DNA from: an uncultured bacterium
Lineage (GTDB): Bacteria; Cyanobacteriota; Vampirovibrionia; Gastranaerophilales; Gastranaerophilaceae
Assembly: GCA_902795965.1 (NCBI GenBank)
Contig: CADBNI010000021.1
Location: forward strand, 62,001 to 126,000
Length of the DNA stretch: 64,000 nucleotides
Reading direction: 5' to 3'
Shown here: positions 3,169 through 63,062 of the stretch, piece by piece
Position numbering within the stretch: the first letter of the stretch is position 1
Layout of the letters: each line of letters begins with the position of its first letter
Translations under genes and position numbers: made by a program
Notes under the pieces: generated by a model
Told to the model about the DNA's origin: nothing
Seen by the model: the letters and a program-made list of their open reading frames with translations, nothing else
Databases searched by the model: none

Positions 3169-4803
3169 ATGAGCAGCCTGCAATTTCAAAACGATTTGGA
3201 CAGATTAACGGAGGTCTTGCCCGAAAAGGTCAAGAGATACATCTCTTATGAGAACATGGAAGATGTTATCGAAATTGTTTTGGATATCGGCAGAACCCCC
3301 GAAATCCGACATTCGGGAGGAAAAATTGATTATTTGGGCGAAGAATTTGTTACGGAAGACGACATAAATTATATTACCGCCCGACTTCAGGAATTTACGT
3401 CCGACAACCGCTCGGGAATCCCCGGAACACTCCACAGAATTAGTGCTATAAGAAACCGTCAAGGCAAAATTATCGGTCTTACTTGCAGAATTGGCAGAGT
3501 TGTTACGGGGACGATTGCTTGTATAAAGGATATTTGTCTTTTGAACAAAAGCATTTTGTTTTTGGGACGTCCCGGAGTTGGAAAGACTACAAAATTACGT
3601 GAAATTTCCCGCCTTGTTGCTGACGAATTGGGAAAACGTGTTGTAATTGTTGATACATCAAACGAAATTGCAGGTGACGGAGATACTCCTCACCCCGCAA
3701 TCGGGCATGCGCGCCGTATGCAGGTTACACAACCCGAGTATCAGAAAGATATTATGATTGAGGCGGTTGAAAACCATACTCCCGAAGTTATCGTTGTTGA
3801 TGAAATCGGTACGGAAGCTGAAGCTCAGGCGGCTCGTACAATAGCGGAACGCGGGGTTATGCTGATTGCTACCGCACACGGAAACAGCCTTGAAAACCTT
3901 ATCAAAAACCCGACACTGTCGGATTTGGTGGGCGGTATTCAATCCGTTACGCTTGGTGATGATGAGGCAAAACGCAGAGCCTCGCAAAAAACGGTGCTTG
4001 AACGTGAAAAACAACCGACTTTTGATGTCGTAATTGAGATTTTGGACAGAAATACTCTTGCGGTGTATAAAGATACTGCGGAGGCGGTAGACTATATTCT
4101 TAGAGGTTGGCCTATCAGACCCGAAATTAGAAAAGTTGACAAAACTTATGAAACTCCGCAAGCTCCCGAACAAAAAAACGAACCGACTTTGACGGATATT
4201 CCGCAGGAGATTAATAAACTTGAACAAAAAATTTCACCCGAACGTAATACCGACAGTCTTAAATTCAGCTTTTCAAGACAAAAATATGTTGAAGAAGTAA
4301 AAGGGTTTAAAAAGATTTATCTTTATGCGGTTTCGCGTACTATTGTCGAAAAAGTTATCGAACGTTTGGATTTGAATGCGGAAATTACACGCAGTATTGA
4401 AGATGCGGATATTGTAATTGCTCATAAAAACTTTGCCAAAGGCGGAGCGAAAGTCTTGAGTACCGCAAACGATTACAGGATACAGATTTTTTACGTGAAA
4501 ACCAATTCTATGGCGCAAATTCAAAAGGTTTTGAAGGAAGCGTTGGATATTGTTGAAACTTCAAAAACACTTCAGGGTTATTATGATGATACGGAACGCG
4601 CTCTTGACGAGGCAAAAGAGGGGATAAACAAGGTTCTTGCGGGAGCGGAACATGTTGAACTTACTCCGCAAAGCCAGCATATCAGAAAACTTCAGCACGA
4701 ACTTGTGGAACAACATAACCTTTCGAGTAAATCAATCGGAGAAGGTAATAACAGACATTTGCGAATAATCGGCGGAACCGATTACGATAAAAAAACGGTC
4801 TAA
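3169..4803 (+). CDS. Ycf45-like AAA ATPase with R3H domain
   Basis: A 544-residue ATPase resembling cyanobacterial/plastid Ycf45 and the SpoIIIAA-type ATPase group, proteins that combine a RecA-like nucleotide-binding fold with a nucleic-acid-binding R3H domain. The P-loop GRPGVGKTT is at residues 133-141 and Walker B VIVVDEIG at 207-214. A C-terminal R3H-type segment (R-x3-H, then SIGEGNNRHLRI) lies near residues 510-535. The ribosome site GAAAGGCGG precedes the ATG. It stands alone, flanked by repeats. Its cellular role is not firmly known; single-stranded nucleic acid binding is the usual family annotation. Confidence 0.85.
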   Translation: MSSLQFQNDLDRLTEVLPEKVKRYISYENMEDVIEIVLDIGRTPEIRHSGGKIDYLGEEFVTEDDINYITARLQEFTSDNRSGIPGTLHRISAIRNRQGKIIGLTCRIGRVVTGTIACIKDICLLNKSILFLGRPGVGKTTKLREISRLVADELGKRVVIVDTSNEIAGDGDTPHPAIGHARRMQVTQPEYQKDIMIEAVENHTPEVIVVDEIGTEAEAQAARTIAERGVMLIATAHGNSLENLIKNPTLSDLVGGIQSVTLGDDEAKRRASQKTVLEREKQPTFDVVIEILDRNTLAVYKDTAEAVDYILRGWPIRPEIRKVDKTYETPQAPEQKNEPTLTDIPQEINKLEQKISPERNTDSLKFSFSRQKYVEEVKGFKKIYLYAVSRTIVEKVIERLDLNAEITRSIEDADIVIAHKNFAKGGAKVLSTANDYRIQIFYVKTNSMAQIQKVLKEALDIVETSKTLQGYYDDTERALDEAKEGINKVLAGAEHVELTPQSQHIRKLQHELVEQHNLSSKSIGEGNNRHLRIIGGTDYDKKTV

Positions 4804-5356: not shown

Positions 5357-8293
5357 TTAAATCTCTATTCCGTGCAGTTGGCAGAAGGATTTTAGGACGC
5401 TTTGGGCTTTCTTCAAATCCGTATATACATATTTATTTTGGGTTTGTTCAATAAGTTCTTTGGATTTTTTGTACAATTTGTCTGCGCCTTGGAGGTATTC
5501 TGTTTGTTTGGGCGATTTTATAAGCCCCAATTCCTGAAAATATTTTCCGTAAAGCAGGTAAAGTCTTGACAAAATATCTTTCAGATTGTATTTTCTTGCG
5601 GTTATAATCGCGCTTTCTATGTGCATTTTGGCGGTTTCAAAATCCGAAGTCGTTATATAACATTTTGCGAGTACCGTTTTCAAAAGTATTGCAAAGAAAT
5701 AGTTGTCGATTTTCGGGTTTTGTGCTACTTCAAGTGCCTGCTGCGCAATATCCGCTGCTTTTTGCGGACCTTCGGTATCCAAGGTTGCTTCCGCTATCAA
5801 ATACCATGTCAAAAGCGCACCGAGTGCCATTTTTTCTTTTGCAAAATATGCAATTTGGTCGTTATATATTTCCATTGCCTGTTTGGAATTGTCGTTGTCT
5901 TTAAATACTTTTCCCAACAAAGTTTTCAGAATATTTTTTGTAAAATTATCTCCGTTATTGTTTGCGAAAGTTACGATTTGGAAAAGGTCTTCCTGTATAT
6001 TGTGATATTTTTTTCTAAAGAAATTGTTTATAATGTTTATGAAATTCCAACGCAGTATGGTCAGATTGTCCATTACATCTTCACGATAGGATTTTAGAAC
6101 TTCTTCAAGAATTTGTTCCGAAGCCTTGAAATTTCCTTTCATTGAATTTGCGAATGCTAACGTGAGTTTACATTTGCAGATAAACAAATCGTCTTTAATA
6201 TTGTTTCGTTCCGCTACGTCAAAAATTACCGTTAAAATTTCAAATGCGCGGTCATTACCTTGTAATACGAGGGCATTTGCGAGTATAAGATATGTTTTTA
6301 ACCAAGTCTCAAACAGAAATGCCATATCGTATTTGTTGTGTTTTTTCAGGAAATATTTGTTCAAGATAGGCATAATCTCGTTGTCAATCATGTTTATGAT
6401 TTGACCGCAGTTGCCGATATTTAAAAGAGCGTTGAGTTTTGACACTTTTAAAAGAGCAATGTCCAAAAGGTTTTCGGGCGGGGTTTTTTCTATTACGGAA
6501 TCAACGCATTCGACTTCACCGAAATAGTTTCCCGTTTTTCTGCAACAGGAAGAAAGATATGCCAAAAGTTCAATTTCTTTCGGGCTGTTGCCGATTGCCT
6601 GCGCGTTTGAAATTGCATCAGGCAGATATTCCATCGCCTCTTGCGGATTGGAATTTGCAAGGAGTTTGCCGAGTCTTTCCGATATATTGTAGCGAATTTT
6701 TAATGTTTCGCTTTCATCAAATTCATTTATAAGTGCGAGCGATTGTTTTTGAGAAATTGCGTAAAGATTTAGGTCGCCTATATATGCGGCAAGTTTTGTA
6801 TTTTTTGTCCAAATCTCCAGTGAAAGTTCGTTTTGTTTTAAGTTTTGTGCTATTACACCCGATATTGCGTTTGAATTAAGCGTAAAGCCTGCAAGATGTG
6901 TGAATATGAGTTTGTTAATTTTTTCATAAAGTTCATCATTTTTTGCGGTTTTTAAAATTGTTTCCCACAAAAGCTGTGAGGTAAATTCGCAGTAAATTTC
7001 GTTAAGCGGTGCTATGTAATCCATACTGCGCAGGTAGACGAGTATTTTTTTGAATTTTTTGTTATCAAGTTCAAAAATTTCTTTAATTAGGTTGACGTTA
7101 ATTTTGTCACCGATAATTGCCGATGCCAAAAGGATTGTGTAAGCATCGGGGTTCAGATGCGATAACAGTGCTAATCTGTGTTCCAAAAGCCCTTTAAAGT
7201 TCGTGCTGAGTTCAAATTCCTGTTCGCAAAGTGTGCAATCGTTTTTGAGGCAAAGAGCATGGTTTATGTATGAAGGGTTTCCGTTGCTGATTTTGTAAAT
7301 CTCACGTAATTCCGCATCCGAGATTTCGGGAAAATCCTTGATTCTTTTCTTTTTTTGTTTTAATAATGCCCAGATTTGCCCGTATTCAAGCGGAGCTACG
7401 GAAACATCAAGGTAAATATTTTCTCTTTCCGTCGGAAAATAAAAATATCCTTTTGCGGGTTTTGATTCGTTGTATAAAAGCAGGAATTTGAGGTTTCTCC
7501 AAATGTTTTCTTTTTTGATTAAACGACTGATAAATTCGTATGAAAATCCGTCTATAAAGTCAAAATTATCAATTACGATAAGGAATTTGCTTTGAGTTAA
7601 TTTGTCAAATATTTTGTTTAAGAATTTAAACGTTTTGTTTTTGCCCGAAACGATATCTTCAAATTTTCCTGTTTTTTCGGGGTATAAAAAGTTTATAAAA
7701 TCAAAAATTTCCGAATTGTTAAGTTCGGGAAATTCCGTTCTGAAAAATGCCGAGGCATCTTTTTTGAATTGCGCATTGTTTAAGCAAAAATTCGGCATGC
7801 CAAAAGTGTTAAGCAAAATATCTTGTATGACACCTCCCGGGGTAATTTGGGTAATCGGAGTGCATTTGCCGTAAAATACGCTGAAATCTTTTATTTCTTT
7901 GATAATGTTTTTGAGTACAAGGCTTTTACCGCTTCCTTTTGCACCGCTGAGTGAAAAGATTTTTTTATCGTTGGAATTTATACCTTTAACCAAAATATCT
8001 TTCGCATTTTTTTGAGAAACAATATTTGCGCGATATTCAAGAATAAATTCGTCTTCCGTTTGTGTTTGTTCAAAGGTATAACCGCATTTTCTGCATTTAT
8101 GCGCATCAGGAAAATTTATGCTGTTGCAGTTTGGGCAGATTTTTAAAATTTCGGTTCCGCAATTTTTGCACCTGTGGTCAAAAATCGAATTAACGGTATT
8201 GCAATTTTTGCAGACCAAACCTGTACGAGCCTTACAATAAGGGCATTTTAGCGTATTGTCAGGAATTGTTTTTTTACATATGGGACAAATCAT
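5357..8293 (-). CDS. Zinc-ribbon STAND-type ATPase with helical repeats
   Basis: A 978-residue protein in three parts. Residues 3-70 hold six CxxC pairs (zinc-ribbon knuckles). An AAA/NACHT-like ATPase follows, with P-loop GAKGSGKS at 117-124 and a Walker-B-like FLIVIDNFDFI near residue 240. From about residue 380 to the end the sequence is alpha-helical and TPR/MalT-like. Such STAND ATPases act as ligand-triggered switches, as in MalT- or adenylate-cyclase-associated proteins. Here no output domain is fused; the gene starts 5 bases after the sigma factor gene, so the sigma factor may be its partner. This pairing is inference from position. Confidence 0.8.
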   Translation of the reverse strand: MICPICKKTIPDNTLKCPYCKARTGLVCKNCNTVNSIFDHRCKNCGTEILKICPNCNSINFPDAHKCRKCGYTFEQTQTEDEFILEYRANIVSQKNAKDILVKGINSNDKKIFSLSGAKGSGKSLVLKNIIKEIKDFSVFYGKCTPITQITPGGVIQDILLNTFGMPNFCLNNAQFKKDASAFFRTEFPELNNSEIFDFINFLYPEKTGKFEDIVSGKNKTFKFLNKIFDKLTQSKFLIVIDNFDFIDGFSYEFISRLIKKENIWRNLKFLLLYNESKPAKGYFYFPTERENIYLDVSVAPLEYGQIWALLKQKKKRIKDFPEISDAELREIYKISNGNPSYINHALCLKNDCTLCEQEFELSTNFKGLLEHRLALLSHLNPDAYTILLASAIIGDKINVNLIKEIFELDNKKFKKILVYLRSMDYIAPLNEIYCEFTSQLLWETILKTAKNDELYEKINKLIFTHLAGFTLNSNAISGVIAQNLKQNELSLEIWTKNTKLAAYIGDLNLYAISQKQSLALINEFDESETLKIRYNISERLGKLLANSNPQEAMEYLPDAISNAQAIGNSPKEIELLAYLSSCCRKTGNYFGEVECVDSVIEKTPPENLLDIALLKVSKLNALLNIGNCGQIINMIDNEIMPILNKYFLKKHNKYDMAFLFETWLKTYLILANALVLQGNDRAFEILTVIFDVAERNNIKDDLFICKCKLTLAFANSMKGNFKASEQILEEVLKSYREDVMDNLTILRWNFINIINNFFRKKYHNIQEDLFQIVTFANNNGDNFTKNILKTLLGKVFKDNDNSKQAMEIYNDQIAYFAKEKMALGALLTWYLIAEATLDTEGPQKAADIAQQALEVAQNPKIDNYFFAILLKTVLAKCYITTSDFETAKMHIESAIITARKYNLKDILSRLYLLYGKYFQELGLIKSPKQTEYLQGADKLYKKSKELIEQTQNKYVYTDLKKAQSVLKSFCQLHGIEI

Positions 8294-8298
8294 TTATG

Positions 8299-8850
8299 TC
8301 ACCCCAATGACTGCTTCACTTCGCTCATAAGTTTGAACAGTCGTTTTGACACTTCCGATTGAGATATATTAAGCTCTTGTGCAATTTCGCTTTGAGTTAA
8401 GCCTTTTTCGTATCTGAGATTGTAAAGTCTGAGATAATTTTTGGCAGGTACTCTGCGGTCAATATCATAAACCGCATCAACGATTTTTTGTAAAATGTCT
8501 TTTCTAACCGCTATATCTTCGGGAGTTTCAGCAATGTCAACGGGTTCGTACTTCACATTGATATTTGCATAATCGTTATCATCAACCGGTACGGTATCAA
8601 CCGCTTTGTAACCTTCGCGCGATCTTCTCAATCTGCCTTCATTTTTCAGTACGTTCAAGATGGAGGTTGTTGCAATTTTTTTCAAATATGCTTCAAGTGT
8701 TTTGTCTGACGTAACGGTTTTGACAATAAGCATTGAGCGTCTGCAAGTTTCATTGAAAAAATCATCATACAAATCTTCGTTGTTTGCAAACTTCCTGTCA
8801 TTTTTAATAATTTTTTCGATTAAGTTTATTTTTTCTTGTTCCAATTCCAC
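8299..8850 (-). CDS. RNA polymerase sigma-70 family factor
   Basis: Has a region-2-like N-terminus (YDDFFNETCRRS, then LEAYLKKIATTSILNVLKNE) and a clear region 4 helix-turn-helix at the C-terminus (GLTQSEIAQELNISQSEVSK). No region 1.1 is seen, and the length fits a small alternative sigma factor. An open frame extends to a TTG at 8871, but an extended -10 (TGCTATAAT, TATAAT at 8878-8873) lies only two bases before that TTG. The GTG at 8850, with AGGA 9 bases upstream, is therefore the better start. The gene sits between the DUF1822/TonB-like gene and the zinc-ribbon ATPase and seems to have its own internal promoter as well as operon read-through. Confidence 0.8.
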   Translation of the reverse strand: MELEQEKINLIEKIIKNDRKFANNEDLYDDFFNETCRRSMLIVKTVTSDKTLEAYLKKIATTSILNVLKNEGRLRRSREGYKAVDTVPVDDNDYANINVKYEPVDIAETPEDIAVRKDILQKIVDAVYDIDRRVPAKNYLRLYNLRYEKGLTQSEIAQELNISQSEVSKRLFKLMSEVKQSLG

Positions 8851-8884
8851 TTTAGCAATTCCTGTTTTCAATATTATAGCATGT

Positions 8885-11347
8885 TTAAAAGTATATGATA
8901 AGAGCCAAATTGAAATAGGGGGTCTTAATCTCGTCAGCAGGCGGTTTTACGACATTTAAAGTTTCTTTAACAGATTGTAACACAATGTTATCAATTTGAG
9001 TTGAACCGCTGCCCGAAACTATTGATGATTCTTGAATTGTACCATTCTTGTCAAGTTTTAAGTTTATCTTAACATAATTTGTGTAGGCATATTCGGTTGC
9101 AAGCAATAAGTCAGCCGAGAGTGACAATTTTATGCTTTTGCCCGCAGTTCTCAGGTATGACTGCATTTTCGGACTGTAAGAAAGATTGTCGGGAACATCC
9201 CAAATCAGCTTGCTCACATTCATATAAGGTTCGGATGCGGAAGATTTTGTTTGTGTCGGAGTTGTGGTTTTCAGTTCTTTAACAACTTTTTTTGCTTCCG
9301 TGTTTACGGGTTTTGTAACTTCTGGAGCATTTGTTGCTAAGATATCTTCCGCAGAACTGTCTGACGGTATTGTTTTCGTAATTTCGTTATTTGCAGGTTG
9401 CTCTGCATTTTCTTCCGTTTTTGGTTTAACAAACATTGATATTGATGCTGTTGCAATTACCGCTGCAAGTGCTGCGGCAACAATAAGAGTCTTTTTGTTT
9501 GTTGATTTTGCGGGTGTATTGTTGAACAAAGCTGCCCCCGGAACTGCTGCCGGGTCTTCTTCGTAACTTACTTCGTCTTCAAGAGATTTTATATCGTTTG
9601 TGTTTGAAGTTGCTTCTTCTTCGTTGTAAAGGACGTTTATATCGTTTTGTTCTTCGTCTTGTTCGTAAGTTATCGTTTCGTTGTTTTCTTGAGATTCAAC
9701 GTAATCTGTCTGTTCATCTGCTGATGAAGTCAAAAGTACGTCATCAATTTGCGAAAGAACTTCGTCTGATGAAATATCTTCGGGAGAATTTTCCGTTTCT
9801 ACTCTTTCGATTGAGATATTTTCGTTATCATCTGCCGATAGATTTTCCAAAAGATTTTTGCCGAAGGAATCATAATCCCTTTCAGAATTATCTTCCGCAA
9901 TCGGTTCTTCAAACGAGTTTTCCGTATTGTCGGTAATTTCAACGTCATTAACAAAATCAATGCTTTCAGCAACTTCCGTGTTATCGGATGTATTTTCTTC
10001 AACTGCCGAATCTTCAAACGATAACGGTTCAATTTCGGGTTCGGTCAACTGTCCCGTTTCTATTTGTTCAAAGGAAACTGTTTCTTCTGCTGTGTTTTCA
10101 ATAGGTTCTATTACCGTTTCTTCCACTTCGTTAAAAGACATTTTTTCAATCGGTTCAACCGTTGTTGTATCTGTTGTAATTTCTGTTTCTGCTATGTTGT
10201 CTAAAGACAATACTTCATCAACTGCATCAAGAGCAGGTAAAATTTCTTCTGCGGTTTCGGGAACGGAATCAAAATCCAATTTTTCAACACTGTCAATTTT
10301 ATCGTCAAGATTTTCCGCGATTGTTTCTTCCAAATTATCGGAAATTTCAAGATTTTCGGATTCTGGTGTTTCTTCAATGTTTAAAAGTTCCAAATTGTCG
10401 GAAATTTCTTCCGTAGCAATATCGGAAACTTCGTTTGAAATTCCTTCCGAAGCAGTATCAAATTCCGGAGTTTCAGCCCAAACATCTTCCGATGTGCTTT
10501 CAAGTTCGGGAGTTTCCGTTAATACATCTTCTGTCAAATCGCCAATGGTTTCCGCTAAAATTTCCGTTTCTTCAACCGGTTGTTCCGAAGGAATTGAATC
10601 AAATGCATCAAATTCATCTTGAACTACAATATCTTGAGGCAATTTTGTTTTGTCGATTTCAGGATCGGAAACAGCTTTAAATGAAAGTGTTTCAAAATTT
10701 TCAAATTCAATAAACTTATCTCTCAGTTCCGCGCTTTTTGTCAGTTGTTCAAGCAAATATTTTTTATCGTTTTCCGAAATATCGTTGTCAGCCATTGCCA
10801 TGATTAATCTTTCGGAATTTTCCGTATCATTTTCCGACAGTTCAACGTTTTTATTTCCCTGAAAATTATTTATAAAGTTAACAAGTTCGGAAGAAGGAGT
10901 AAGTTTTTCTTTTTCTATGAAATAATAATCGGAATTTGCGTTATTTTTGTTGATTAATCTCGGTTCAAAAAACCCTAAAAATTTTACATGCGATTTGTCT
11001 TGCGCTAACTGTAACACGATATAAATATCAGGAACAAGATTGTATTCAAAATGAGATTTTGGAATAAATATAACGTTTTCATCAAATACAACTCTCACGT
11101 CAATGTGAATATTTGGGAGCATGATGTCCGAAATATCGGTACCTTCCAAAATTTTCTTAATTGAATGAATGTTATATATGTCCGAAGTTTTTACGTTTTC
11201 GGCAGAAAGATATTTCAATGCCAACTCCGCACCGAGTGTGTTTACATATGCACGATTTTTAACATCTTTGCGCGTAAAAGCGTTAGCCGCAACGCTTGCG
11301 TCGTATCTCTCTTTTTCGTCAATATAAATTAAAGTTTCCTGTTCCAT
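8885..11347 (-). CDS. DUF1822-like protein with acidic linker, membrane span and TonB-like C-terminus
   Basis: An 820-residue protein with an unusual layout. Residues 1-150 resemble cyanobacterial DUF1822 proteins (RAYVNTLGAELALKYL, later a VPDIYIVLQL strand and FLGFFEP). Residues 220-620 are low-complexity and very rich in Glu, Ser, Thr and Asp. A single span follows (KKTLIVAAALAAVIATASI). The last 100 residues look like a TonB C-terminal domain (VKINLKLDKNGTIQESSIVSGSG). The N-terminus would be cytoplasmic and the C-terminus periplasmic. The AAGGGGAAT ribosome site supports the ATG. With the sigma factor 13 bases downstream, it could be a membrane-bound sensor or anti-sigma-like regulator; that is inference. 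Confidence 0.75.
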   Translation of the reverse strand: MEQETLIYIDEKERYDASVAANAFTRKDVKNRAYVNTLGAELALKYLSAENVKTSDIYNIHSIKKILEGTDISDIMLPNIHIDVRVVFDENVIFIPKSHFEYNLVPDIYIVLQLAQDKSHVKFLGFFEPRLINKNNANSDYYFIEKEKLTPSSELVNFINNFQGNKNVELSENDTENSERLIMAMADNDISENDKKYLLEQLTKSAELRDKFIEFENFETLSFKAVSDPEIDKTKLPQDIVVQDEFDAFDSIPSEQPVEETEILAETIGDLTEDVLTETPELESTSEDVWAETPEFDTASEGISNEVSDIATEEISDNLELLNIEETPESENLEISDNLEETIAENLDDKIDSVEKLDFDSVPETAEEILPALDAVDEVLSLDNIAETEITTDTTTVEPIEKMSFNEVEETVIEPIENTAEETVSFEQIETGQLTEPEIEPLSFEDSAVEENTSDNTEVAESIDFVNDVEITDNTENSFEEPIAEDNSERDYDSFGKNLLENLSADDNENISIERVETENSPEDISSDEVLSQIDDVLLTSSADEQTDYVESQENNETITYEQDEEQNDINVLYNEEEATSNTNDIKSLEDEVSYEEDPAAVPGAALFNNTPAKSTNKKTLIVAAALAAVIATASISMFVKPKTEENAEQPANNEITKTIPSDSSAEDILATNAPEVTKPVNTEAKKVVKELKTTTPTQTKSSASEPYMNVSKLIWDVPDNLSYSPKMQSYLRTAGKSIKLSLSADLLLATEYAYTNYVKINLKLDKNGTIQESSIVSGSGSTQIDNIVLQSVKETLNVVKPPADEIKTPYFNLALIIYF

Positions 11348-11403
11348 AATATTCCCCTTCCAACATATAAGATGACACGGGAATTTAAATTATTCCAAAA
11401 ATG

Positions 11404-11423
11404 TTGTAAAGTTTTGTAACAAA
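11404..11423 (+). promoter_or_regulatory. Conserved 20-bp upstream element, copy 1
   Basis: TTGTAAAGTTTTGTAACAAA, identical to 39185-39204 and related to 45124-45145. It contains two TGTAA words 10 bp apart and sits about 80-100 bp before a small orphan gene in each case. Probably a regulator or promoter site. Confidence 0.5.
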
Positions 11424-13243: not shown

Positions 13244-14155
13244 ATGAATTTATTAATCATTTTTACGGATATACCGATTTTAATCGTATTGGCGACTTTT
13301 GTTGTAGCTATCGTTTATTGCGTTAAGAATTATGTTTTTGTAAATAAAAATCTTACAATCTTTTTGAATTTTATTTCAAATTTCAAAAAGACCGATTTGA
13401 ATTTCAGGTTTAAAGAAATTGATGAATGGATGCTTTTAAATCCTTATGTATCCGCGATTTGGCTTGAATTTAAAAATACGCTTGTGTTTTCGGAATCCGT
13501 AGCACTAAAAGGTAAGAATAATAATTTGACTTATAAAGAAGTATCTTCAACGGTTCAAAATATTCAAACAACCGTTGATCCTTTGTATTTCTTTAATGAA
13601 GAAACGCTTGTTACATCAAAATATAACAGCAAATTTTTGAACACTATACCTACTATTTTGACAGGTTTCGGGCCTTTGTTTACGTTCTTGAACATTGCAA
13701 TCGCATTCGGTAAAATTGACTTCAGTTCGCAGGAAAAAACGGTTTCGTCCGTTGCGGGTTTGATGGCATCAATGCAGACTGCGGCACTTGTATCAGTTAT
13801 CGCGGTAGGTTCTTCGCTTATATTTTTGCTTTTTGAAAGAATATTTTATCAAAGATTTTGCAGAGGTCCGCTTTCAAAATGCGAAGATTTGATGGCAAAA
13901 CTGTTTGACAATATTTCTTCCGAAAAATTCCTTTTGGAATTGTTGAAAGAAACGAAAATTCAAAACAACTCAATGTCGAATTTGATAACCGCTATGCCCG
14001 AACACTTTAAAATAGCCATGAATGCGGGCATTGCAAGCAATCTTGTTCCGTATTTGGAAAATCTTATTTTTGGTATGAACCAGTTAAACAAAGGAATGAA
14101 AGAAGTTGCTAAAAATGCGGGTAAAAATTCGGATGATGTCGATGAATTATTTTAG
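13244..14155 (+). CDS. MotA/TolQ/ExbB-type channel protein, ZorA-like
   Basis: 303 residues with one N-terminal span (about 4-28) and two spans in the MotA/ExbB-like core: TILTGFGPLFTFLNIAIAF at about 135-155 and SMQTAALVSVIAVGSSLIF at about 172-195. In this superfamily such proteins form the ring of a proton-driven motor with a MotB/ExbD partner; the partner is the next gene (9 bases on). The GFGPLFTF and LMASMQTA segments recall ZorA of the Zorya anti-phage system, but no zorC, zorD or zorE follows and the long ZorA tail is missing. It is not flagellar MotA by position. Function: probably an ion-driven envelope machine. Confidence 0.7.
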   Translation: MNLLIIFTDIPILIVLATFVVAIVYCVKNYVFVNKNLTIFLNFISNFKKTDLNFRFKEIDEWMLLNPYVSAIWLEFKNTLVFSESVALKGKNNNLTYKEVSSTVQNIQTTVDPLYFFNEETLVTSKYNSKFLNTIPTILTGFGPLFTFLNIAIAFGKIDFSSQEKTVSSVAGLMASMQTAALVSVIAVGSSLIFLLFERIFYQRFCRGPLSKCEDLMAKLFDNISSEKFLLELLKETKIQNNSMSNLITAMPEHFKIAMNAGIASNLVPYLENLIFGMNQLNKGMKEVAKNAGKNSDDVDELF

Positions 14156-14164
14156 AGGTTAAGA

Positions 14165-14863
14165 ATGGCGATACGCAGACGCGGCGGTAAGGCTGCCGAA
14201 GGTGACAACAACATATTTTGGACTACAATGTCAGACTTGATGTTAGGTTTGGCAATCGTTTTTATGACCTTGTTCGTACTTGCCATGACAGGTTTTACTC
14301 AACAGAGCGTAAAGCAAAAAGTTAAACAAATTGAAGTTAATAAAGAATTAACCGAAAAACTTCGACAAGAGCATATAGATGCTCAGGTTGATGAAATGAC
14401 GGGCGATATCAAGATTTCAGACCTTGAGTTGTTTGAATTGGGAAGTTATCGTTTGTCTGCTAAAGGTAAAGCGTATTTGGACAAATTTGCTCCGATTTAT
14501 ATCAATACTATTTTTTCAAAAGAAGATTTGCATGACGAAATAGAAAGTATTATAATTCAGGGACATACCGACAGCCACATGTTTGCGGGTGTGAAAGACC
14601 ATGACGAACAATATTTGAGGAATATGACATTGAGTTTGCAGAGGGCAAATTCTATTGCGAATTATATTTTTAAAACAAAGTACGACAAAAAATATACGGC
14701 GAAATTGAAAAAAATCCTTGTTGTTGAGGGAAAAAGTTATTCCGAGCCTATTTTGGTTAACGGTAAAGAGGATTGCAACAAAAGCAGACGTGTTGAAATG
14801 CGCCTAAAGACCAAAAGACTTGATATTACGGAAGTCTTGTTCGGAGGTGCTTTGCATTTATGA
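14165..14863 (+). CDS. MotB/OmpA-type partner protein, ZorB-like
   Basis: 232 residues. A single span at about 17-40 starts with [20 protein letters not shown], where the SD pair marks the likely proton-channel aspartate of MotB/ZorB proteins. The C-terminal half (residues 90-220) is an OmpA-like peptidoglycan-binding domain: GHTDSH, then [14 protein letters not shown], and finally [11 protein letters not shown]. It would anchor the motor to the cell wall. It follows the MotA-like gene and overlaps the next gene by four bases (ATGA), so the three are co-translated. Confidence 0.75.
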
Positions 14864-16758: not shown

Positions 16759-17050
16759 ACTTCAATCTGATGCTCATAACAGAGGTAACTTTCGACCCGA
16801 GAGGTATAACAATTTAAAATTGAGTATGGACGTCGCATACAACCCGAGTCCTCATGTTGTTGTGAGTCTTTCAATGTCGTCTGCCGAATTTGATTTAAAA
16901 ACTTTGGAAAAGATTAACGGCGGACTCGGACCTGATGATAAGTTTGTTTCCCGTTGGTTTGCCAAGCCGGCTACCGTTCCTGCTCTTATGGCTTGCTGGC
17001 GAAATGCACAAAAGAACCGCGGAAAAATTTACGATAAATACAAAGTTTAG
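16709..17050 (+). CDS. Unknown protein, second of the paralogous pair
   Basis: 113 residues, related to the middle of the upstream product (shared YNNLK, S/TPHxxVS, a G-x-x-G-x-D-x-[KR]-F pattern and a late W-R-N motif), so the pair probably arose by tandem duplication. It starts inside the upstream gene in another frame with AGGGAAAGAAAG before the ATG. It ends three bases before the convergent pseudopilin stop. The fold seems small and mixed alpha/beta; no function known. Confidence 0.65.
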   Translation: MKTLKELGEELKELMIELQSDAHNRGNFRPERYNNLKLSMDVAYNPSPHVVVSLSMSSAEFDLKTLEKINGGLGPDDKFVSRWFAKPATVPALMACWRNAQKNRGKIYDKYKV

Positions 17051-17682
17051 TAGTATATTATTTTCCATCCGTTTTTTATTATCGAATATGCGCAGCCCGA
17101 CCATACTCCCACTGAAGGACAACCGTTTAGATTCGATACTTTGATTGCATTTTTGTCAAGATTTATATTTAAAACAAACCAATCTTTTCCCACAATATTC
17201 GGACCTTTTGAACCGTTTACATCAATAAAAATATTTTGAAGATATCCCATTTTTGATTGATTACTGTTACGAAACATAAAATATGCACCGTTTGGGTCAA
17301 TGTAGCATATTCTGGGAGCGCCAAACATTGCTATTGACATTCCTTTTCCATAGTAATCTTTTGGTTCCGCGGAATATCCGCAAGTTGATGTCGAATTGCA
17401 ATATTTGGCAATTTTAATATAAGGCGCCCAATATTTATCAAAATATGCTTTCATATTGTCGTAATTCATACTCTGATTTGTATCTATCCAGTTAATTGAA
17501 TCTCCGTTTTCTGCTATTGAATTTTGCATTGCTTGATTTAGAGTTGAATAAATCTTTTTTAACTTTGTTACCGTAACTTGTTTTTCATGATGTTTAACAA
17601 TCAAAGGCATAGTAATTGCTGCAACAACACCTATTATTCCAAGCACTATTAATATTTCAACTAAAGTAAAGCCTCTTTTCAT
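17047..17682 (-). CDS. Pseudopilin with type IV prepilin leader (module 1)
   Basis: 211 residues. The short leader MKRG is followed by FTLVEILIVLGIIGVVAAIT, the classic prepilin peptidase site with Glu at +5 and the hydrophobic N-terminal helix. The C-terminal half carries FIDVNGSKGPNIVGKDWF, a signature shared by all five pilins in this window and possibly a calcium loop. AAAGGTGA precedes the ATG. It is divergent from an XRE regulator at 17794. It is likely an inner-membrane or surface pseudopilin of a type II/IV pilus-like system whose assembly genes are not here. Confidence 0.85.
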   Translation of the reverse strand: MKRGFTLVEILIVLGIIGVVAAITMPLIVKHHEKQVTVTKLKKIYSTLNQAMQNSIAENGDSINWIDTNQSMNYDNMKAYFDKYWAPYIKIAKYCNSTSTCGYSAEPKDYYGKGMSIAMFGAPRICYIDPNGAYFMFRNSNQSKMGYLQNIFIDVNGSKGPNIVGKDWFVLNINLDKNAIKVSNLNGCPSVGVWSGCAYSIIKNGWKIIYY

Positions 17683-26761: not shown

Positions 26762-27403
26762 ATGGATACGATATTAAAGGATATGAATCCTATTATACAA
26801 ATGCTGATAGTAATGAGCTTGTTCTCGTTGCTTCCTTTGGTATTTTGTTGTATGACAAGTTTTTTGAGGTTTGTAATCGTATTTTCAATGTTGAAAACCG
26901 CAATGGGTACTCAACAAGTTCCGCCATCAATCGTAATTATCGGTCTTTCAATGATATTGACTTTTTATACTATGGGCGGAACATTTCAAAAAATGTATGA
27001 ATTGGGTTCTGTTCCGTATCAAAAAAATCATAATATTATAGAAACGATTAATGAGGGTTCAAAGCCTTTAAAAGAATTTATGATGAAACAAACCCGCGAG
27101 GGTGATTTGGCATTTTTTGTCGAATTATCAAAAGGCAAAGCCCCGAACAATCCTGATGAACTTACTGTTTGGGAAATTGCGCCCGCGTTTATTTTGAGTG
27201 AACTTAAAACATCGTTTGAAATCGGATTTATAATATTTGTTCCGTTTATTGTACTTGACCTTGTAGTGGCAAATATTTTGCTTGCGTTAGGTATGTTTAT
27301 GTTGTCGCCGACGATTATATCTCTGCCGTTTAAACTGCTGATATTTATTGCGGTAGACGGTTGGGCGCTGATTGTTCAAGGGCTTGTAACAAGTTATAAT
27401 TAG
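26762..27403 (+). CDS. fliP: Flagellar export gate protein FliP
   Basis: 213 residues with four spans. Signature segments are FVIVFSMLKTAMGTQQVPPS, then a large loop, a late ISELKTSF-like stretch (ILSELKTSFEIGF) and a C-terminal LPFKLLIFIAVDGW. FliP pentamers with FliQ and FliR form the export pore. No signal peptide is obvious before the first span, as in SctR-type members. AAGGAA precedes the ATG. Confidence 0.95.
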   Translation: MDTILKDMNPIIQMLIVMSLFSLLPLVFCCMTSFLRFVIVFSMLKTAMGTQQVPPSIVIIGLSMILTFYTMGGTFQKMYELGSVPYQKNHNIIETINEGSKPLKEFMMKQTREGDLAFFVELSKGKAPNNPDELTVWEIAPAFILSELKTSFEIGFIIFVPFIVLDLVVANILLALGMFMLSPTIISLPFKLLIFIAVDGWALIVQGLVTSYN

Positions 27404-27411
27404 GAGGGGTA

Positions 27412-27888
27412 ATGGAAGTTTTAATTGAATATTTAGCAAAAGGATTTTTATTAATGCTTGCAATATCTATGCCTTGTGTACTTGTTGCGGCGGGTATCGG
27501 TTTGATTGTCGGTATTTTGCAGGCTGTAACTCAGGTTCAGGAACAAACTATTGCAGCCGCTCCGAAAATTTTGGGTGTATTTTTGGTAATTATTATAGGC
27601 GGTATAGGATTTATTAATATGCTTAAAGGTTTTGTAATTGACGGCATGTCTATTGCTTTTAATCTTGTATCGAAAAATGATTCGTTTGTATTGCCGTCTG
27701 ATTATTACAAATACACGACACCTTTTGAAAGAGAAATGAAAAACAGCGGAGAAATTGACTATATAATGAAGCATCCGGGCAAAGTTCCGTATATTGATAA
27801 TCAGCACAAAATCAAATATTACGGAGCGCCGAATACTCCGATGCCGAAACCGAATTTTGTTGAAACGAATAAAATACTGGGCAGATAA
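27412..27888 (+). CDS. fliQ: FliQ with a long C-terminal extension
   Basis: 158 residues; FliQ is normally about 89. Residues 1-85 are the two-helix FliQ hairpin, with the family core VGILQAVTQVQEQTIAAAPK. Residues 90-158 are extra, soluble, Pro- and Tyr-containing (PSDYYKYTTPFEREMK, KVPYIDNQHKIKYYG), and unlike any FliQ part I know. The extension is not a frameshift product: AGGAGG-led fliR starts after its own stop. It may bind a substrate or another export component in the cytoplasm. Confidence 0.9.
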   Translation: MEVLIEYLAKGFLLMLAISMPCVLVAAGIGLIVGILQAVTQVQEQTIAAAPKILGVFLVIIIGGIGFINMLKGFVIDGMSIAFNLVSKNDSFVLPSDYYKYTTPFEREMKNSGEIDYIMKHPGKVPYIDNQHKIKYYGAPNTPMPKPNFVETNKILGR

Positions 27889-27896
27889 GGAGGATT

Positions 27897-28676
27897 ATGG
27901 AGCAAATTCTTACCGAATTAATGAAAACATTTCCGATGCTTAATACGTATTTGGCAGCGGGTATTTTCATATTTGCAAGATTGTTGGGATTTATAAGATT
28001 TGCCCCCGTTTTTAACAGAAAAGAAATTCCCGGCATGGTAAAGATTTCGCTCGTTTTGTTGTTTACGATAATTTTGACATGTGTAGCAAAGCCTGATGTC
28101 AAGGTTGTTGAAACATCTTTTGTGCTTTCAATTCTTTTAAATATGGTTGTCGGAGCAATGATAGGTTATGTTGCGCAGTTGATTCTGCTTGCGATTGAGG
28201 CGGGTGGAGATATGGTGAATATGCAGATGGGGCTTTCTTCCGCAATGGTTTTGGATCCTACAACTTCGGCTCAGGTTTCTATTGTCGGTAAATGTTTTCA
28301 ACTTTTGGGACTTTTAATTTTTATACAGTTGGGCGGAATTTATTGGCTTTTGCAGGCATTTATGCACAGTATCGAAATATTTCCGCTTGATGCGGTTGTA
28401 ATTCCTCTTAAACAGCTTGTTAATATGGATTATTTGGTTCAGCTTTCGTCAAATGTTTTGTTTATGGGATTGCAGATAGCTTCTCCCGTATTGCTGGCGA
28501 CTTTGGGACAGGATATTATTTTGGGTGTAATTTCAAAAACCGCTCCGCAGGTAAACGTTTTTCAGTTGAGTTTCTTGTTCAAGCCTGTTTTGGGTGCTGC
28601 GATTATGGTTTGGATTTTACCCATGCTTGTGAATGTAATTTCCGATTATTTCCTTTCATTTGCAAAAATTATTTAA
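27897..28676 (+). CDS. fliR: Flagellar export gate protein FliR
   Basis: 259 residues, normal length, with about six to eight hydrophobic segments. Typical features: FARLLGFIRFAPVFNRKEIP at the N-terminus, a GGDMVNMQMGLSSAMVLDP core near 103-121, and NVFQLSFLFKPVLG near the end. FliR seeds the FliP5-FliR pore complex. Preceded by AAGGAGG, 8 bases after fliQ. It closes the fliM-O-P-Q-R operon; the next gene has its own promoter. Confidence 0.93.
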   Translation: MEQILTELMKTFPMLNTYLAAGIFIFARLLGFIRFAPVFNRKEIPGMVKISLVLLFTIILTCVAKPDVKVVETSFVLSILLNMVVGAMIGYVAQLILLAIEAGGDMVNMQMGLSSAMVLDPTTSAQVSIVGKCFQLLGLLIFIQLGGIYWLLQAFMHSIEIFPLDAVVIPLKQLVNMDYLVQLSSNVLFMGLQIASPVLLATLGQDIILGVISKTAPQVNVFQLSFLFKPVLGAAIMVWILPMLVNVISDYFLSFAKII

Positions 28677-31410: not shown

Positions 31411-32262
31411 TTATCTGCATTTCTTTTTACCTGTCCACGAAAGGTCGTTGCAGTGCAGGTAATCCATGTTCCCGTTGTAGATTACCCAGCCTGCACAGCC
31501 CATACCGTTTGTGCTCCAACCGGAAACGTAACCTATTGATTTGTCCTTACAATTTATTTTAAAGCTGTATCCGCTTGTATCGGCTGCCACTCCGTGCGGT
31601 ACAAGCCCGTATTTTGTTATGTATATAAAAAATGTATCCACTCCGTATTGATTAGGTTCTTTTGTTCCGTTTACATCAACCATAATATTCCCGCAGACGT
31701 TTTTCATTTGTATTGAAGTCCCTTCAGTTAAAGAACAATTAGCATCCCAAACCCATGGCATTATTATTGTTCCGTTAGCAAGTCGGGCTTTTGAATTATT
31801 GTTAGAATCAAGATTGCCCGCATTTTGTTTGCCATCCAAACCTACATAATTAACATTTTTCAGGCAGCCTGTTTCGCTCGATTTACAAATTTTGGTTGTT
31901 TTGAGGTAAGGTTGAAATTTTTCCATAAGTTTGTCCGAGCTTGTTTTATCTTCCGAATTCGCCAAATCCCAATTATCCGGAGTACCATAATCTTGTACTG
32001 CTCTTTCGTACGCTTGAGAAAGTATTGAATATGATTGTTTTAACCTGTTAACGGTTTGCATTTCACGAATTTTTTGGTTTATAACAGGCATTGTAATCGC
32101 TGCAACAGTGCCTATGATGCCGAGGGTGATGAGGACCTCCGCGAGGGTGAAGGCACATTTTTGCCCCCTCTCCCTAACCCTCTCCCTCAAGGGGCGAGGG
32201 AACTTATCTCTGCTTCCTCCCTGATTAGAAGATGAAATTTTTTCCTTAGCTTCTTGTTTCAT
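31411..32262 (-). CDS. Pseudopilin with a repeat inserted in its leader (module 2)
   Basis: 283 residues. AAGGAG supports the ATG at 32262, but the prepilin motif CAFTLAEVLITLGIIGTVAA only starts at residue 36. The extra leader, residues 15-35, is encoded by a GGGAGAGGGTTAGGGAGAGG-type repeat (about 32155-32210) of a kind also found between genes here. A leader of about 36 residues is far longer than the usual 5-10. The C-terminal part has the shared MVDVNGTKEPNQYGVDTFF motif. Divergent from the XRE gene at 32391. Prepilin peptidases can accept some long leaders, so it may still be functional. Confidence 0.8.
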   Translation of the reverse strand: MKQEAKEKISSSNQGGSRDKFPRPLRERVRERGQKCAFTLAEVLITLGIIGTVAAITMPVINQKIREMQTVNRLKQSYSILSQAYERAVQDYGTPDNWDLANSEDKTSSDKLMEKFQPYLKTTKICKSSETGCLKNVNYVGLDGKQNAGNLDSNNNSKARLANGTIIMPWVWDANCSLTEGTSIQMKNVCGNIMVDVNGTKEPNQYGVDTFFIYITKYGLVPHGVAADTSGYSFKINCKDKSIGYVSGWSTNGMGCAGWVIYNGNMDYLHCNDLSWTGKKKCR

Positions 32263-44520: not shown

Positions 44521-45123
44521 ATGAGGAAATTACCTGCATTCACGCTTGCGGAAGTCTTGATTACCCTCGGGATAATCGGGGTTGTTGCCACTATGACAAT
44601 GCCTGTACTGATTACAAATATTAGAAACACCGAATTGCAAAGCAGGTTTAAAAAGACTACCGCAGAACTCCAAAACGCACTCCAAAAAGTTCAATTTGAC
44701 GAAGGGCAAACCATATACGGAAACTATACAGGTTACGGTAACAAAATTGCAAAAATTCTTGTAAAACAGTTTAAACAACCGGCAACTTGCAATATTATTG
44801 CAACTGAAATAAAAAGAAACAAACTTAACGGTAAAGATTTATTATACAAAAATTATGATAACAGTGATTTTAATACACATCTTATTGATGACGGAACAAT
44901 AATTGTAAACGATAATTTTTTTATTTTTGTAAATAATGATGCATTCTCAAATACAAGTTATCAACTCTATATCGACACAAACGGCTATAAAAAACCGAAT
45001 AAAGTAGGTTATGACTTGTTCATGTTTTGCCTAAAACCGAACGACAGATTGGACTACACTTGTGACACATACACACAAAAAGCATTTACCCAAAAAGATT
45101 ATTTTAAAAATCTGCCGAGATAA
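44521..45123 (+). CDS. Pseudopilin (module 3)
   Basis: 200 residues. Leader MRKLPA, then FTLAEVLITLGIIGVVATMT. The Ca-loop-like motif is YIDTNGYKKPNKVGYDLF. It is very similar, in protein and DNA, to the pilin at 48970-49569, with the two in opposite orientation. It has a strong promoter and a large palindromic operator. Two late Cys (FCLKPNDRLDYTC) suggest a disulfide, which the VKOR-DsbA protein could form. Confidence 0.87.
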   Translation: MRKLPAFTLAEVLITLGIIGVVATMTMPVLITNIRNTELQSRFKKTTAELQNALQKVQFDEGQTIYGNYTGYGNKIAKILVKQFKQPATCNIIATEIKRNKLNGKDLLYKNYDNSDFNTHLIDDGTIIVNDNFFIFVNNDAFSNTSYQLYIDTNGYKKPNKVGYDLFMFCLKPNDRLDYTCDTYTQKAFTQKDYFKNLPR

Positions 45124-60585: not shown

Positions 60586-61299
60586 TTATTCTCTTATGTT
60601 AATTGCTTTGTTGTACATATCGTCAACAACTTTCATCATACGCGTACTTGCAATCAGTGAAGCGTTTAGCCTTAACATATCTGCCGTAGAGGAGTAAACA
60701 TTTGTGTTAGAGGTTTCAAGGTTGTTTTGGCAAATACATTCATGCTCTCTGACTAATTGCGGTTCGCCCGATTCTTCCGTCGGAACAAGTTTGTTCATTC
60801 CGATGGATTCAAGATTTTCCTGTGATGCAAATCTTACGAGTGGAATCGTTCCCAATTTTTTGGGTTTTGTATTAGCGGCATCATAAGCAAATACTTCTCC
60901 GTTCGGTTTAATTACAAATTTGTAGCAATTTGTGGGGATTTTTATGCCTTCACCGACAATCCAATCATCATTTGTAACCAAATATCCGTCTTTTCCCTGT
61001 TTAAAAGCTCCGTCACGAGTGTATGCAACTTCACCTTCGGGTGAAATTACGGGAATAAATCCTGTTCCGTTTATTGCAACATCATAAGGATTACTTGTAA
61101 CTTGAATTGAACCTGCCTGATAATCCGTTCTGATTGCACCGGTCAAATATCCGTCCTCTTTGAGCATTTGTTCAAAAGTTACGGATTTGTATCCTCTTGT
61201 ATTCATATTGGCGAGATTGTTTGCCACGTAACCTAATTTTTCAAACTGTAAGGTTACGTTATTTACACCTTTTCTTACTATACCTTGCATACTGTACAT
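60586..61299 (-). CDS. flgG: Flagellar rod protein FlgG-like
   Basis: 237 residues. Flagellar basal-body rod pattern: LGYVANNLANMNTRGYKSVT near 22-41, GTGFIPVISPEGEVAYTRDG near 79-98, and C-terminal LRLNASLIASTRMMKVVDDM. Slightly shorter than enterobacterial FlgG (260). Which of the two adjacent paralogues is FlgF or FlgG is not certain; this one carries the canonical NNLAN motif. Confidence 0.88.
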   Translation of the reverse strand: MYSMQGIVRKGVNNVTLQFEKLGYVANNLANMNTRGYKSVTFEQMLKEDGYLTGAIRTDYQAGSIQVTSNPYDVAINGTGFIPVISPEGEVAYTRDGAFKQGKDGYLVTNDDWIVGEGIKIPTNCYKFVIKPNGEVFAYDAANTKPKKLGTIPLVRFASQENLESIGMNKLVPTEESGEPQLVREHECICQNNLETSNTNVYSSTADMLRLNASLIASTRMMKVVDDMYNKAINIRE

Positions 61300-61312
61300 G
61301 ATTTATTCCTCA

Positions 61313-62011
61313 CTATGTAGTACTGCCTAATTGTGAAATTACTTTTTGCAGATTTTGGTTTTGAATCATAAAAATCTGCCTGTTTGCTTCAAAGTTTCTT
61401 ATAATCGGCATCATACCGATAAATTCGTTCTGTAAAGACACGTTTGAATATTCGTTGTAACCTTGTTTTACCTGCGGATCGAGTACGGCAACCCCGTTTG
61501 AATCCACAACTCCTATATGTCCTGCAAATTCCAATTTGTGCGTTTTTCTGTTCAAAACACTTACCATGCCTTTTGCGTTAATTTTTACATCATCAATTTT
61601 TTCCGGCACAACAGGTAGTTTTATCGGTACACCTGCGTTTGAAAGCACTTTTGCATCTTCAAGCGTCAAGAGATTTCCTTCTTTGTCGAGTTTAAATCTT
61701 CCGTCGCGTGTAAGTTTAACCCCTTCATCATTTTGGATTTGGAAATAACCCTTGTTTGCGATAGCCAAATCAAGCGGATTGTCGGACATAGCAATACGCC
61801 CTACTTTATCGTCAATGGTTTGCGAAAGCCCGTGAACTCCGATAAATTCCGTAAACGAAGAAACAACCGGGTCTTTTCTTTGAAATCCGATTTTGTCAAA
61901 TCCCGTGACATTATCGTTATACATACCCAAAAGTTCGCTTTGAACATGCATTGCTCTCAGTGATGTTGTTAATCCTTTTTCACAGAATCTTATTCCGCCG
62001 TGTATTATCAT
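61313..62011 (-). CDS. flgF: Flagellar rod protein FlgF-like
   Basis: 232 residues, paralogous to the downstream gene. Contains GMYNDNVTGFDKIGFQRKD in place of the usual NNLANxxTxGYK motif, and NKGYFQIQNDEGVKLTRDGR near 86-105. The diverged motif suggests a specialised rod member. AGAGGTA precedes the ATG. A 20-bp perfect palindrome lies about 45 bases upstream (62054-62073). Confidence 0.85.
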   Translation of the reverse strand: MIIHGGIRFCEKGLTTSLRAMHVQSELLGMYNDNVTGFDKIGFQRKDPVVSSFTEFIGVHGLSQTIDDKVGRIAMSDNPLDLAIANKGYFQIQNDEGVKLTRDGRFKLDKEGNLLTLEDAKVLSNAGVPIKLPVVPEKIDDVKINAKGMVSVLNRKTHKLEFAGHIGVVDSNGVAVLDPQVKQGYNEYSNVSLQNEFIGMMPIIRNFEANRQIFMIQNQNLQKVISQLGSTT

Positions 62012-62339: not shown

Positions 62340-63062
62340 TCACCACGGATAATCTTTCTCGATTTTCCACCCGTCATGCATGATTAATCCGCTGCAATAT
62401 GTACCTGCATTACTTGTTGCAGTCTTTGAACAGCCATATATCCCTGATGTTAATTCAGTTCTGCTCATACCTTGACCATACATATACACACCACTTCTGT
62501 CAAAATTGCCACGGGAATCATTTCTTGATGTTTTAGCTATTACAATATCAAATGCATCTTTGCCTGTTTTATTCGGACCTTTTTTACCGTTTAAATCCAC
62601 ATATATTTCACAAAAAGAACCTCGAGGCCAAAAACCGATAACACTTCCGTTAGCCAAAACCATGCCGTAAGTTGAGTTTTGTGATGCCGGGAAATACGAA
62701 TTATCAGCAACACCGTTTGTTCTTGTATATTTATCAGCCCAGCATTCGTTGGATAAATATTTGCATTCTTTTGCTACTTTTATGTAGGGTTTCAGATACT
62801 GTTCAAAAAATGCTTTTCCATAAGTGTACGTATTTCCGTTAAAACCATTTGAATCAGGTATCTCCCAAGTTTCCAAAAGTCCGTTTTCGGTTTCTGACAT
62901 TCTGACCGCCTGATACAATATACTGTAAGTTTCTTTTAAACGATTGACCGTTACATGTTTTTGGTAATTCGCAATTAATGTCGGCATGGTTACTGCCGCA
63001 ACAACTCCGATAATTCCGAGGGTTATGAGAATTTCGGCAAGTGTAAAACCTTTTTTCATCAA
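62340..63062 (-). CDS. Pseudopilin (module 5)
   Basis: 240 residues. Leader MMKKG, then FTLAEILITLGIIGVVAAVT, and the shared motif YVDLNGKKGPNKTGKDAF. The start codon has AAGGAAGAGTT upstream. The protein carries several Cys in its C-terminal half (KECKYLSNEC, YGCSKT, YCSG), so disulfides are likely. Divergent from the HTH gene at 63201. Its stop abuts a GATAAGT-type repeat. Confidence 0.87.
   Translation of the reverse strand: MMKKGFTLAEILITLGIIGVVAAVTMPTLIANYQKHVTVNRLKETYSILYQAVRMSETENGLLETWEIPDSNGFNGNTYTYGKAFFEQYLKPYIKVAKECKYLSNECWADKYTRTNGVADNSYFPASQNSTYGMVLANGSVIGFWPRGSFCEIYVDLNGKKGPNKTGKDAFDIVIAKTSRNDSRGNFDRSGVYMYGQGMSRTELTSGIYGCSKTATSNAGTYCSGLIMHDGWKIEKDYPW

Follow-up and report, generated by a model that had tools for sequence, protein, structure and literature searches.

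The locus described here raises the question of how a protein with a DUF1822 domain, encoded directly ahead of a sigma factor gene in a member of the Gastranaerophilales, gut bacteria related to cyanobacteria and known mostly from metagenomes, might be connected to transcription. The explanation proposed below, to which we assign a probability of roughly 0.85 on the basis of sequence comparison and structural modelling, is that the DUF1822 protein (gene A) acts as an anti-sigma factor anchored in the membrane and controls the product of gene B, an ECF sigma factor, which would be released by a signal and would activate its own operon.

The window (the whole stretch of 64,000 nucleotides that was analysed) contains the three genes A, B and C that the earlier note had described as an operon, and all of them were found on the minus strand at the positions listed in Table 1. 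The intergenic gaps of 5-13 bases given in that note hold for B and C, which are 5 nt apart, and have to be revised for A and B: the open reading frame of B from the TTG codon comprises 190 amino acids, but its relatives begin with (M/V)E(L/I).. (alignment A1), so that the GTG codon is the likely start and the gap amounts to about 34 nt rather than 13.

Table 1. Features of the A-B-C locus, in coordinates of the window
Feature	Position	Strand	Description or evidence
Gene A	8885..11347	(-)	DUF1822 head - anti-sigma domain - acidic linker - span - TonB-like domain, 820 aa
Gene B, ECF-type sigma factor	8299..8850	(-)	likely start GTG 8850, 183 aa; ORF (8299-8871) back to TTG 8871
Gene C	5357..8293	(-)	three zinc ribbons, P-loop (STAND-like) ATPase, TPR repeats, 978 aa
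DUF1822 head of A, residues 1-165	10853..11347	(-)	PF08852 31.6 bits; AF2; VIA-align; D74...D83-x-R85
Predicted anti-sigma domain (three-helix ASD) of A, residues 172-227	10667..10834	(-)	RsiW/MucA matches; zf-HC2 in orthologues; cross-family HMM
Acidic cytoplasmic linker of A, residues 236-612, probably disordered	9512..10642	(-)	
Single membrane span of A, residues 622-640	9428..9484	(-)	lysines on N-terminal (cytoplasmic) side
Conserved TonB_C-like periplasmic domain of A, residues ~710-820	8885..9220	(-)	TonB_2 match
Candidate autoregulated promoter GGAATA-N14-GTCATC	11371..11396	(-)	3' end 23 nt before A start codon
Conserved TTGTTACAA element, upstream of the promoter	11414..11422	(-)	aligned upstream regions of A

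Several other genes of the window deserve mention. About 2 kb upstream of the operon, at 13244-14863, there is a MotA/MotB-like pair, with ZorA/ZorB scores below the curated cut-offs and an OmpA domain on the second protein. Downstream of the operon and convergent with it (3169-4803), a single protein combines a SpoIIIAA-like ATPase, a phosphatase-like domain (PF25516) and R3H. Dispersed pilin-like proteins (17047-17682, 31411-32262, 44521-45123 and 62340-63062) have a common N-terminus close to FTLAE(V/I)LI(T/V)LGIIGVVA, and proteins that resemble flagellar export and rod components (FliP/FliR-like, FlgF/FlgG-like), as judged by reading alone, are encoded at 26762-28676 and 60586-62011.

That B is a sigma factor, as had been claimed, is confirmed by its match to TIGR02937 (sigma70-ECF; 60.9 bits over positions 26-188, cut-off 42.9) and by a Sigma70_r4 match of 32.2 bits; the Pfam sigma2 match taken alone is weak (13.6 bits). 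Thus, B combines sigma2 and sigma4 regions within about 190 amino acids, which is the build of an ECF sigma factor, and a search of the PDB started with the profile of B identifies SigW as the first match (E 5e-5). Nearly all relatives encode one strong match to B per genome.

The association of A with B is widely conserved. The DUF1822 protein A was detected in 52 of 58 relatives, and in 45 of these 52 genomes it is followed immediately, in the same orientation, by B; of the others, A lies at the contig end in three (G002, G013, G033) and at a contig edge in G040, where no B was found, and the two genes are separated in three (G034, G039, G044). Within the genus, the order from A to B is retained in 30 of 33 genomes, and 45 of the 46 named loci found with C contain the A tail, B and C in this order. 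Close relatives in named records are MAGs of Candidatus Gastranaerophilales or Melainabacteria. A chance arrangement of the three genes is therefore excluded. The conservation of gene order that the earlier note had named as a check extends across the Gastranaerophilales for A and the sigma gene, whereas C is adjacent in some families only.

Gene C encodes the predicted zinc-ribbon P-loop ATPase that had been read from the sequence, with 12 invariant cysteines that form three ribbons, a P-loop and TPRs. Its assignment to the STAND/AAA_16 type is tentative: C itself scores 26.9 bits against a cut-off of 32.6, and the homologue in locus L050 scores 44.1. This gene follows B in two genera of the family (g1 and g2) and in single members of families f5 and f7; in families f2, f3, f4 and f6 and in genus g3, its homologues are unlinked and located elsewhere in the genome. 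Such a distribution weakens the suggestion that the ATPase is a second sensor, and because the adjacency of A and B is broad and C is linked only in some families, the A-B pair is the core of the system and C is accessory. A second, longer zinc-ribbon ATPase paralogue (a frame of 1174 amino acids) is encoded elsewhere in the source genome (G000, contig C20, 4252-7026) and in most same-genus genomes as well. A cyclase-like insert seen in the ATPases of L043 and L050 was dropped from consideration after no cyclase match was found in Pfam or the PDB.

The region of A that appears to connect it to B is located directly C-terminal to the DUF1822 head, at residues ~172-227. The first clue came from weak zf-HC2 matches behind the DUF1822 head in two relatives. 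The motif H-(I/L)-x2-C-x2-C (that is, H-x3-C-x2-C), a sequence signature of zinc-type anti-sigma domains (ASDs), occurs at this position in 13 of 41 aligned heads, from families f2, f3 and f4 and genus g3. When the segment is scanned alone, three orthologues match zf-HC2 with 29.9, 26.3 and 24.7 bits (Pfam cut-off 22.2), and four more score just under the cut-off, at 20.5–22.0 bits. In the source genus, the zinc ligands are missing and a zf-HC2 scan of A yields no match; the segment is retained despite the loss of the ligands ('ENSERLIMAMADNDISENDKKYLLEQLTKSAELRDKFIEFENFETLS'), and by sequence alone the domain of the source protein is weak. An HMM built exclusively from the zinc-type ASDs of other families nonetheless retrieves nearly all of the A proteins that belong to the source genus (E 3e-5 to 8e-3), and reaches A of genus g2 only at E 0.16, with the next non-A protein at E 0.43; no cyanobacterial DUF1822 protein scores with this HMM.

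Two further comparisons bear on the same segment. A PDB search started with the profile of A residues 1–240 (31 genomes) identifies RsiW as the first match, with E 5e-5 over profile positions 178-220, followed by DdvA, also an anti-sigma factor, at E 0.09. SigW and RsiW are the two partner chains of the PDB entry 5wuq, so that the profile searches with B and A are each topped by one partner of the same complex. At the structural level, residues 172-226 of the AlphaFold2 (AF2) model are similar to the ASD of MucA (Z 7.2, 2.2 Å over 54 residues) and to RsiW (Z 7.0). The three helices at 172-227 correspond to helices 1-3 of the class I ASD bundle, the part that binds sigma4; no clear fourth, sigma2-binding helix is seen in the model, which ends at residue 240. 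Sequence profile and fold comparison thus agree in pointing to an anti-sigma factor. The definition of class I anti-sigma factors requires an N-terminal ASD, and about 44% of class I ASDs lack H-x3-C-x2-C (PMC7406223). Given that the domain of A is internal, starting near residue 172, and so departs from the strict definition, the most likely classification of A is as an anti-sigma factor of unusual build, a variant of class I.

The earlier note had proposed signalling across the envelope to the sigma factor, and had suggested that binding of the DUF1822 head to this factor be tested. The proposal gains support from the predicted ASD; the sigma clamp, however, would be the domain behind the head, so that sigma binding would not require the head. 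A reading in which the head itself binds sigma, and in which the helices resembling an ASD have a merely structural or incidental presence, appears unlikely: cyanobacterial DUF1822 proteins adjoin sigma genes without an ASD, which makes the head the shared element, but in Gastranaerophilales the zinc motif of the ASD is intact in several families and the domain matches known sigma clamps.

The head does belong to DUF1822, as claimed, with a PF08852 match above the cut-off of 25 bits. This match was obtained from a scan of the head alone or of the genome and is confined to the N-terminal half of the profile (positions 2-182 of 370); a Pfam scan of the whole protein does not report DUF1822, probably owing to the acidic linker. 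The AF2 model of A residues 1-240 has a pLDDT of 93 and a pTM of 0.87. In a VIA-align comparison with the PDB, residues 3-165 retrieve mostly PD-(D/E)XK nucleases (Z from 8.3 to ~4), including Hjc resolvases, the SPARDA nuclease, DpnI, NhoI, EcoRV and HincII; the strongest matches, again mostly of this fold, span 105-130 residues at Z 8.3-5, and Hjc, the SPARDA nuclease and DpnI lead at Z 8.3-7, where values below 8 can reflect a common arrangement. With this caution, and given that Foldseek alone finds no significant match for the head model (best E 0.18), the PD-(D/E)XK-like nuclease fold is considered probable, with moderate support from the model. The prediction provides a suggested fold for the DUF1822 family, which an earlier paper had described as a TPR protein. 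It derives from the Gastranaerophilales model, because a PDB fold search with the model of a cyanobacterial DUF1822 protein is dominated by the Ig-like C-terminal half of that protein; by profile comparison, the heads of the two groups are homologous (E 3e-9).

The hairpin in which the active site would be expected carries D74 and D83-x-R85, retained in 28, 24 and 27 of 31 sequences, respectively, with the complete D...(D/E)-x-R in 23 of the 31 (alignment A3). The catalytic signature D...(D/E)-x-K was not found in the head, where an arginine replaces the usual lysine; hence catalysis is doubtful, and a role in binding appears more likely from the sequence. Among cyanobacterial DUF1822 proteins, a small class associated with CHAT genes has eight members in which the pattern D-ø-x(6–8)-(D/E)-x-R takes the form D…E-C-R, whereas the pattern is absent from the large class. 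It is conceivable, if improbable, that the head is a nuclease-fold module whose conserved D...(D/E)-x-R site serves to detect cytoplasmic nucleic acid and perhaps to cleave it; the anti-sigma factor would then integrate this input with the envelope signal. If so, DUF1822 proteins across Cyanobacteriota would be nucleic-acid-gated sigma regulators throughout the phylum.

The remainder of A agrees with the earlier description of a long acidic linker, one membrane span and a TonB-like end. The linker comprises 377 residues, of which 32% are D/E and 2% K/R, and its length is highly variable among relatives; the C-terminus matches TonB_2 with 28.5-28.8 bits (cut-off 22), and the same match is seen in 18 of 21 orthologous tails. 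This end of the protein, together with the occurrence of an ExbB-family member in 11 of the 13 genomes of the genus, could suggest that A works as a genuine TonB, energizing transport across the outer membrane, and that B regulates this transport. However, TonB-dependent receptors are absent from 12 of the 13 same-genus genomes searched, the source genome included, and found in one; an ExbB-family search of the source genome gives no match; and the long linker is cytoplasmic, with only 170-196 residues after the span in the genus. Energy transduction by A is therefore very improbable. With the receptors missing in those 12 genomes, 'TonB' is better taken to denote a fold than a function, and the domain is more plausibly a sensor or an anchor of the putative anti-sigma factor.

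Upstream of A, the aligned regions of the relatives share the element GGAATA-N14-GTCATC, a layout that is usual for ECF promoters. In 26 of 31 same-genus genomes, an exact copy is found at this position; a further 13 exact matches are dispersed, all six of these that were examined lie inside open frames, and a reversed control pattern gives three matches in all. These counts make autoregulation of the operon through the promoter-like element likely. In the regulon search of the same-genus genomes with the strict motif, the operon's own promoter is the only recurrent site; matches to a looser motif are not conserved, and no further regulon member was found among them. The near-palindromic TTGTTACAA, kept in nearly all aligned regions upstream of A, may be the site of a regulator or part of a divergent promoter.

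Taken together, these features are compatible with the following scheme for the putative anti-sigma factor and its partner. In the resting state, the ASD of A would hold B at the inner membrane. The TonB-like domain would sense a signal in the periplasm, and B would be released, most likely because A is either cleaved in a regulated manner or changes its conformation. Freed B would then transcribe from GGAATA-N14-GTCATC promoters, and, as its own operon has one of these, would stimulate its own synthesis. Cytoplasmic inputs may be added, or the release tuned, by the DUF1822 head and in some lineages also by C.

The juxtaposition of DUF1822 with a sigma gene, a context from which the earlier note had hoped to obtain a function for the domain, had in fact been reported: ECF sigma factors and DUF1822, called a TPR protein, were described together with EACC2–caspase proteins (Kaur et al. 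2021, eLife, PMC8195603). The cyanobacterial loci analysed here agree with that report. DUF1822 is present in 243 of 386 genomes sampled across the phylum, often in several copies in cyanobacteria, and a sigma-like gene supported by profile checks lies directly upstream of DUF1822 in 12 of 20 cyanobacterial loci examined. CHAT–CHASE2, CHAT–nSTAND1 or caspase genes adjoin such loci among those scanned; in L106, L113 and L103, the neighbours are CHAT-nSTAND1-GUN4-like, CHAT-CHASE2 and caspase genes. A small cyanobacterial protein (212–255 aa) encoded upstream of DUF1822 looks ECF-like by eye and was not counted as sigma, because Pfam, NCBIfam (best E 0.026), hhalign and PDB profiles gave no ECF support.

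These neighbourhoods resemble the Gastranaerophilales operon in that a sigma gene directly adjoins a DUF1822 gene with a homologous head. The operon might accordingly be related to the sigma-DUF1822-CHAT/caspase (EACC2) conflict systems of cyanobacteria, as a variant in which the STAND-like ATPase replaces the protease as the trigger for the inactivation of A. The published proposal for such systems (PMC8195603) and the sigma-DUF1822 pairs beside CHAT-nSTAND1, CHAT-CHASE2 or caspase genes lend this idea some weight, as does an experimental precedent for a protease-freed sigma factor, the cleavage of the sigma inhibitor Csx30 by the CHAT protease Csx29 (PMC10028731). It is nevertheless rather unlikely, considering that no CHAT or caspase gene is present among the open reading frames adjoining the operon, where the conserved neighbours are other genes, that C has a different architecture and is unlinked in most families, and that the Gastranaerophilales cassette is single-copy and near-universal in the order, as opposed to the multi-copy cyanobacterial sets. 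Moreover, the partner in EACC2 neighbourhoods is a CHAT or caspase gene, the cyanobacterial DUF1822 proteins examined have neither H-x3-C-x2-C nor an ASD match, and the one that was modelled has an Ig-like C-terminal sandwich.

Because the adjacency of DUF1822 and ECF sigma genes is already published (eLife 2021), what is new here is limited to the predicted anti-sigma domain, the architecture of A and the predicted fold of the head. For DUF1822, a phylum-wide domain previously without an assigned function, the ASD fused behind the head in a conserved A–sigma pair turns a loose neighbourhood association into a specific binding hypothesis and offers a role in signalling that can be tested. For the Gastranaerophilales, a candidate regulator and a candidate promoter can now be named for a sigma factor that is near-universal in the order; our searches found no relevant literature on sigma or anti-sigma factors of Melainabacteria or Gastranaerophilales.

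Among characterized systems, AlgU-MucA of Pseudomonas and RpoE-RseA of E. coli likewise include a membrane anti-sigma factor with a zinc-less ASD, and in structure the ASD of the source protein comes closest to that of MucA; their periplasmic sensor is different, the anti-sigma gene precedes the sigma gene in the present operon, and no MucB/RseB-like partner is seen adjoining A-B. The Csx30-CASP-sigma module of type III-E CRISPR (PMC10028731) also combines a sigma inhibitor with an ECF-like sigma factor that is released by a cytoplasmic sensor, whereas the operon described here contains neither CRISPR genes nor a CHAT protease and A is membrane-anchored. Cell-surface signalling systems for iron uptake, of the FecI-FecR type, place an ECF sigma factor under the control of an anti-sigma factor that crosses the membrane once and has its signalling domain in the periplasm (PMC11637429); by contrast, the source genome lacks a TonB-dependent receptor and the TonB-like domain is part of the putative anti-sigma protein itself. 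The likeness to SigW-RsiW of Bacillus subtilis (5wuq) involves both partners, each of which is the best PDB match of its counterpart: an ECF sigma factor is paired with a single-span anti-sigma factor that has a zinc-type ASD. In RsiW, however, this domain is N-terminal, whereas in A the predicted ASD has lost its zinc ligands in the source genus, is located between a DUF1822 head and a very long acidic linker, and is joined across the membrane to a TonB-like periplasmic domain.
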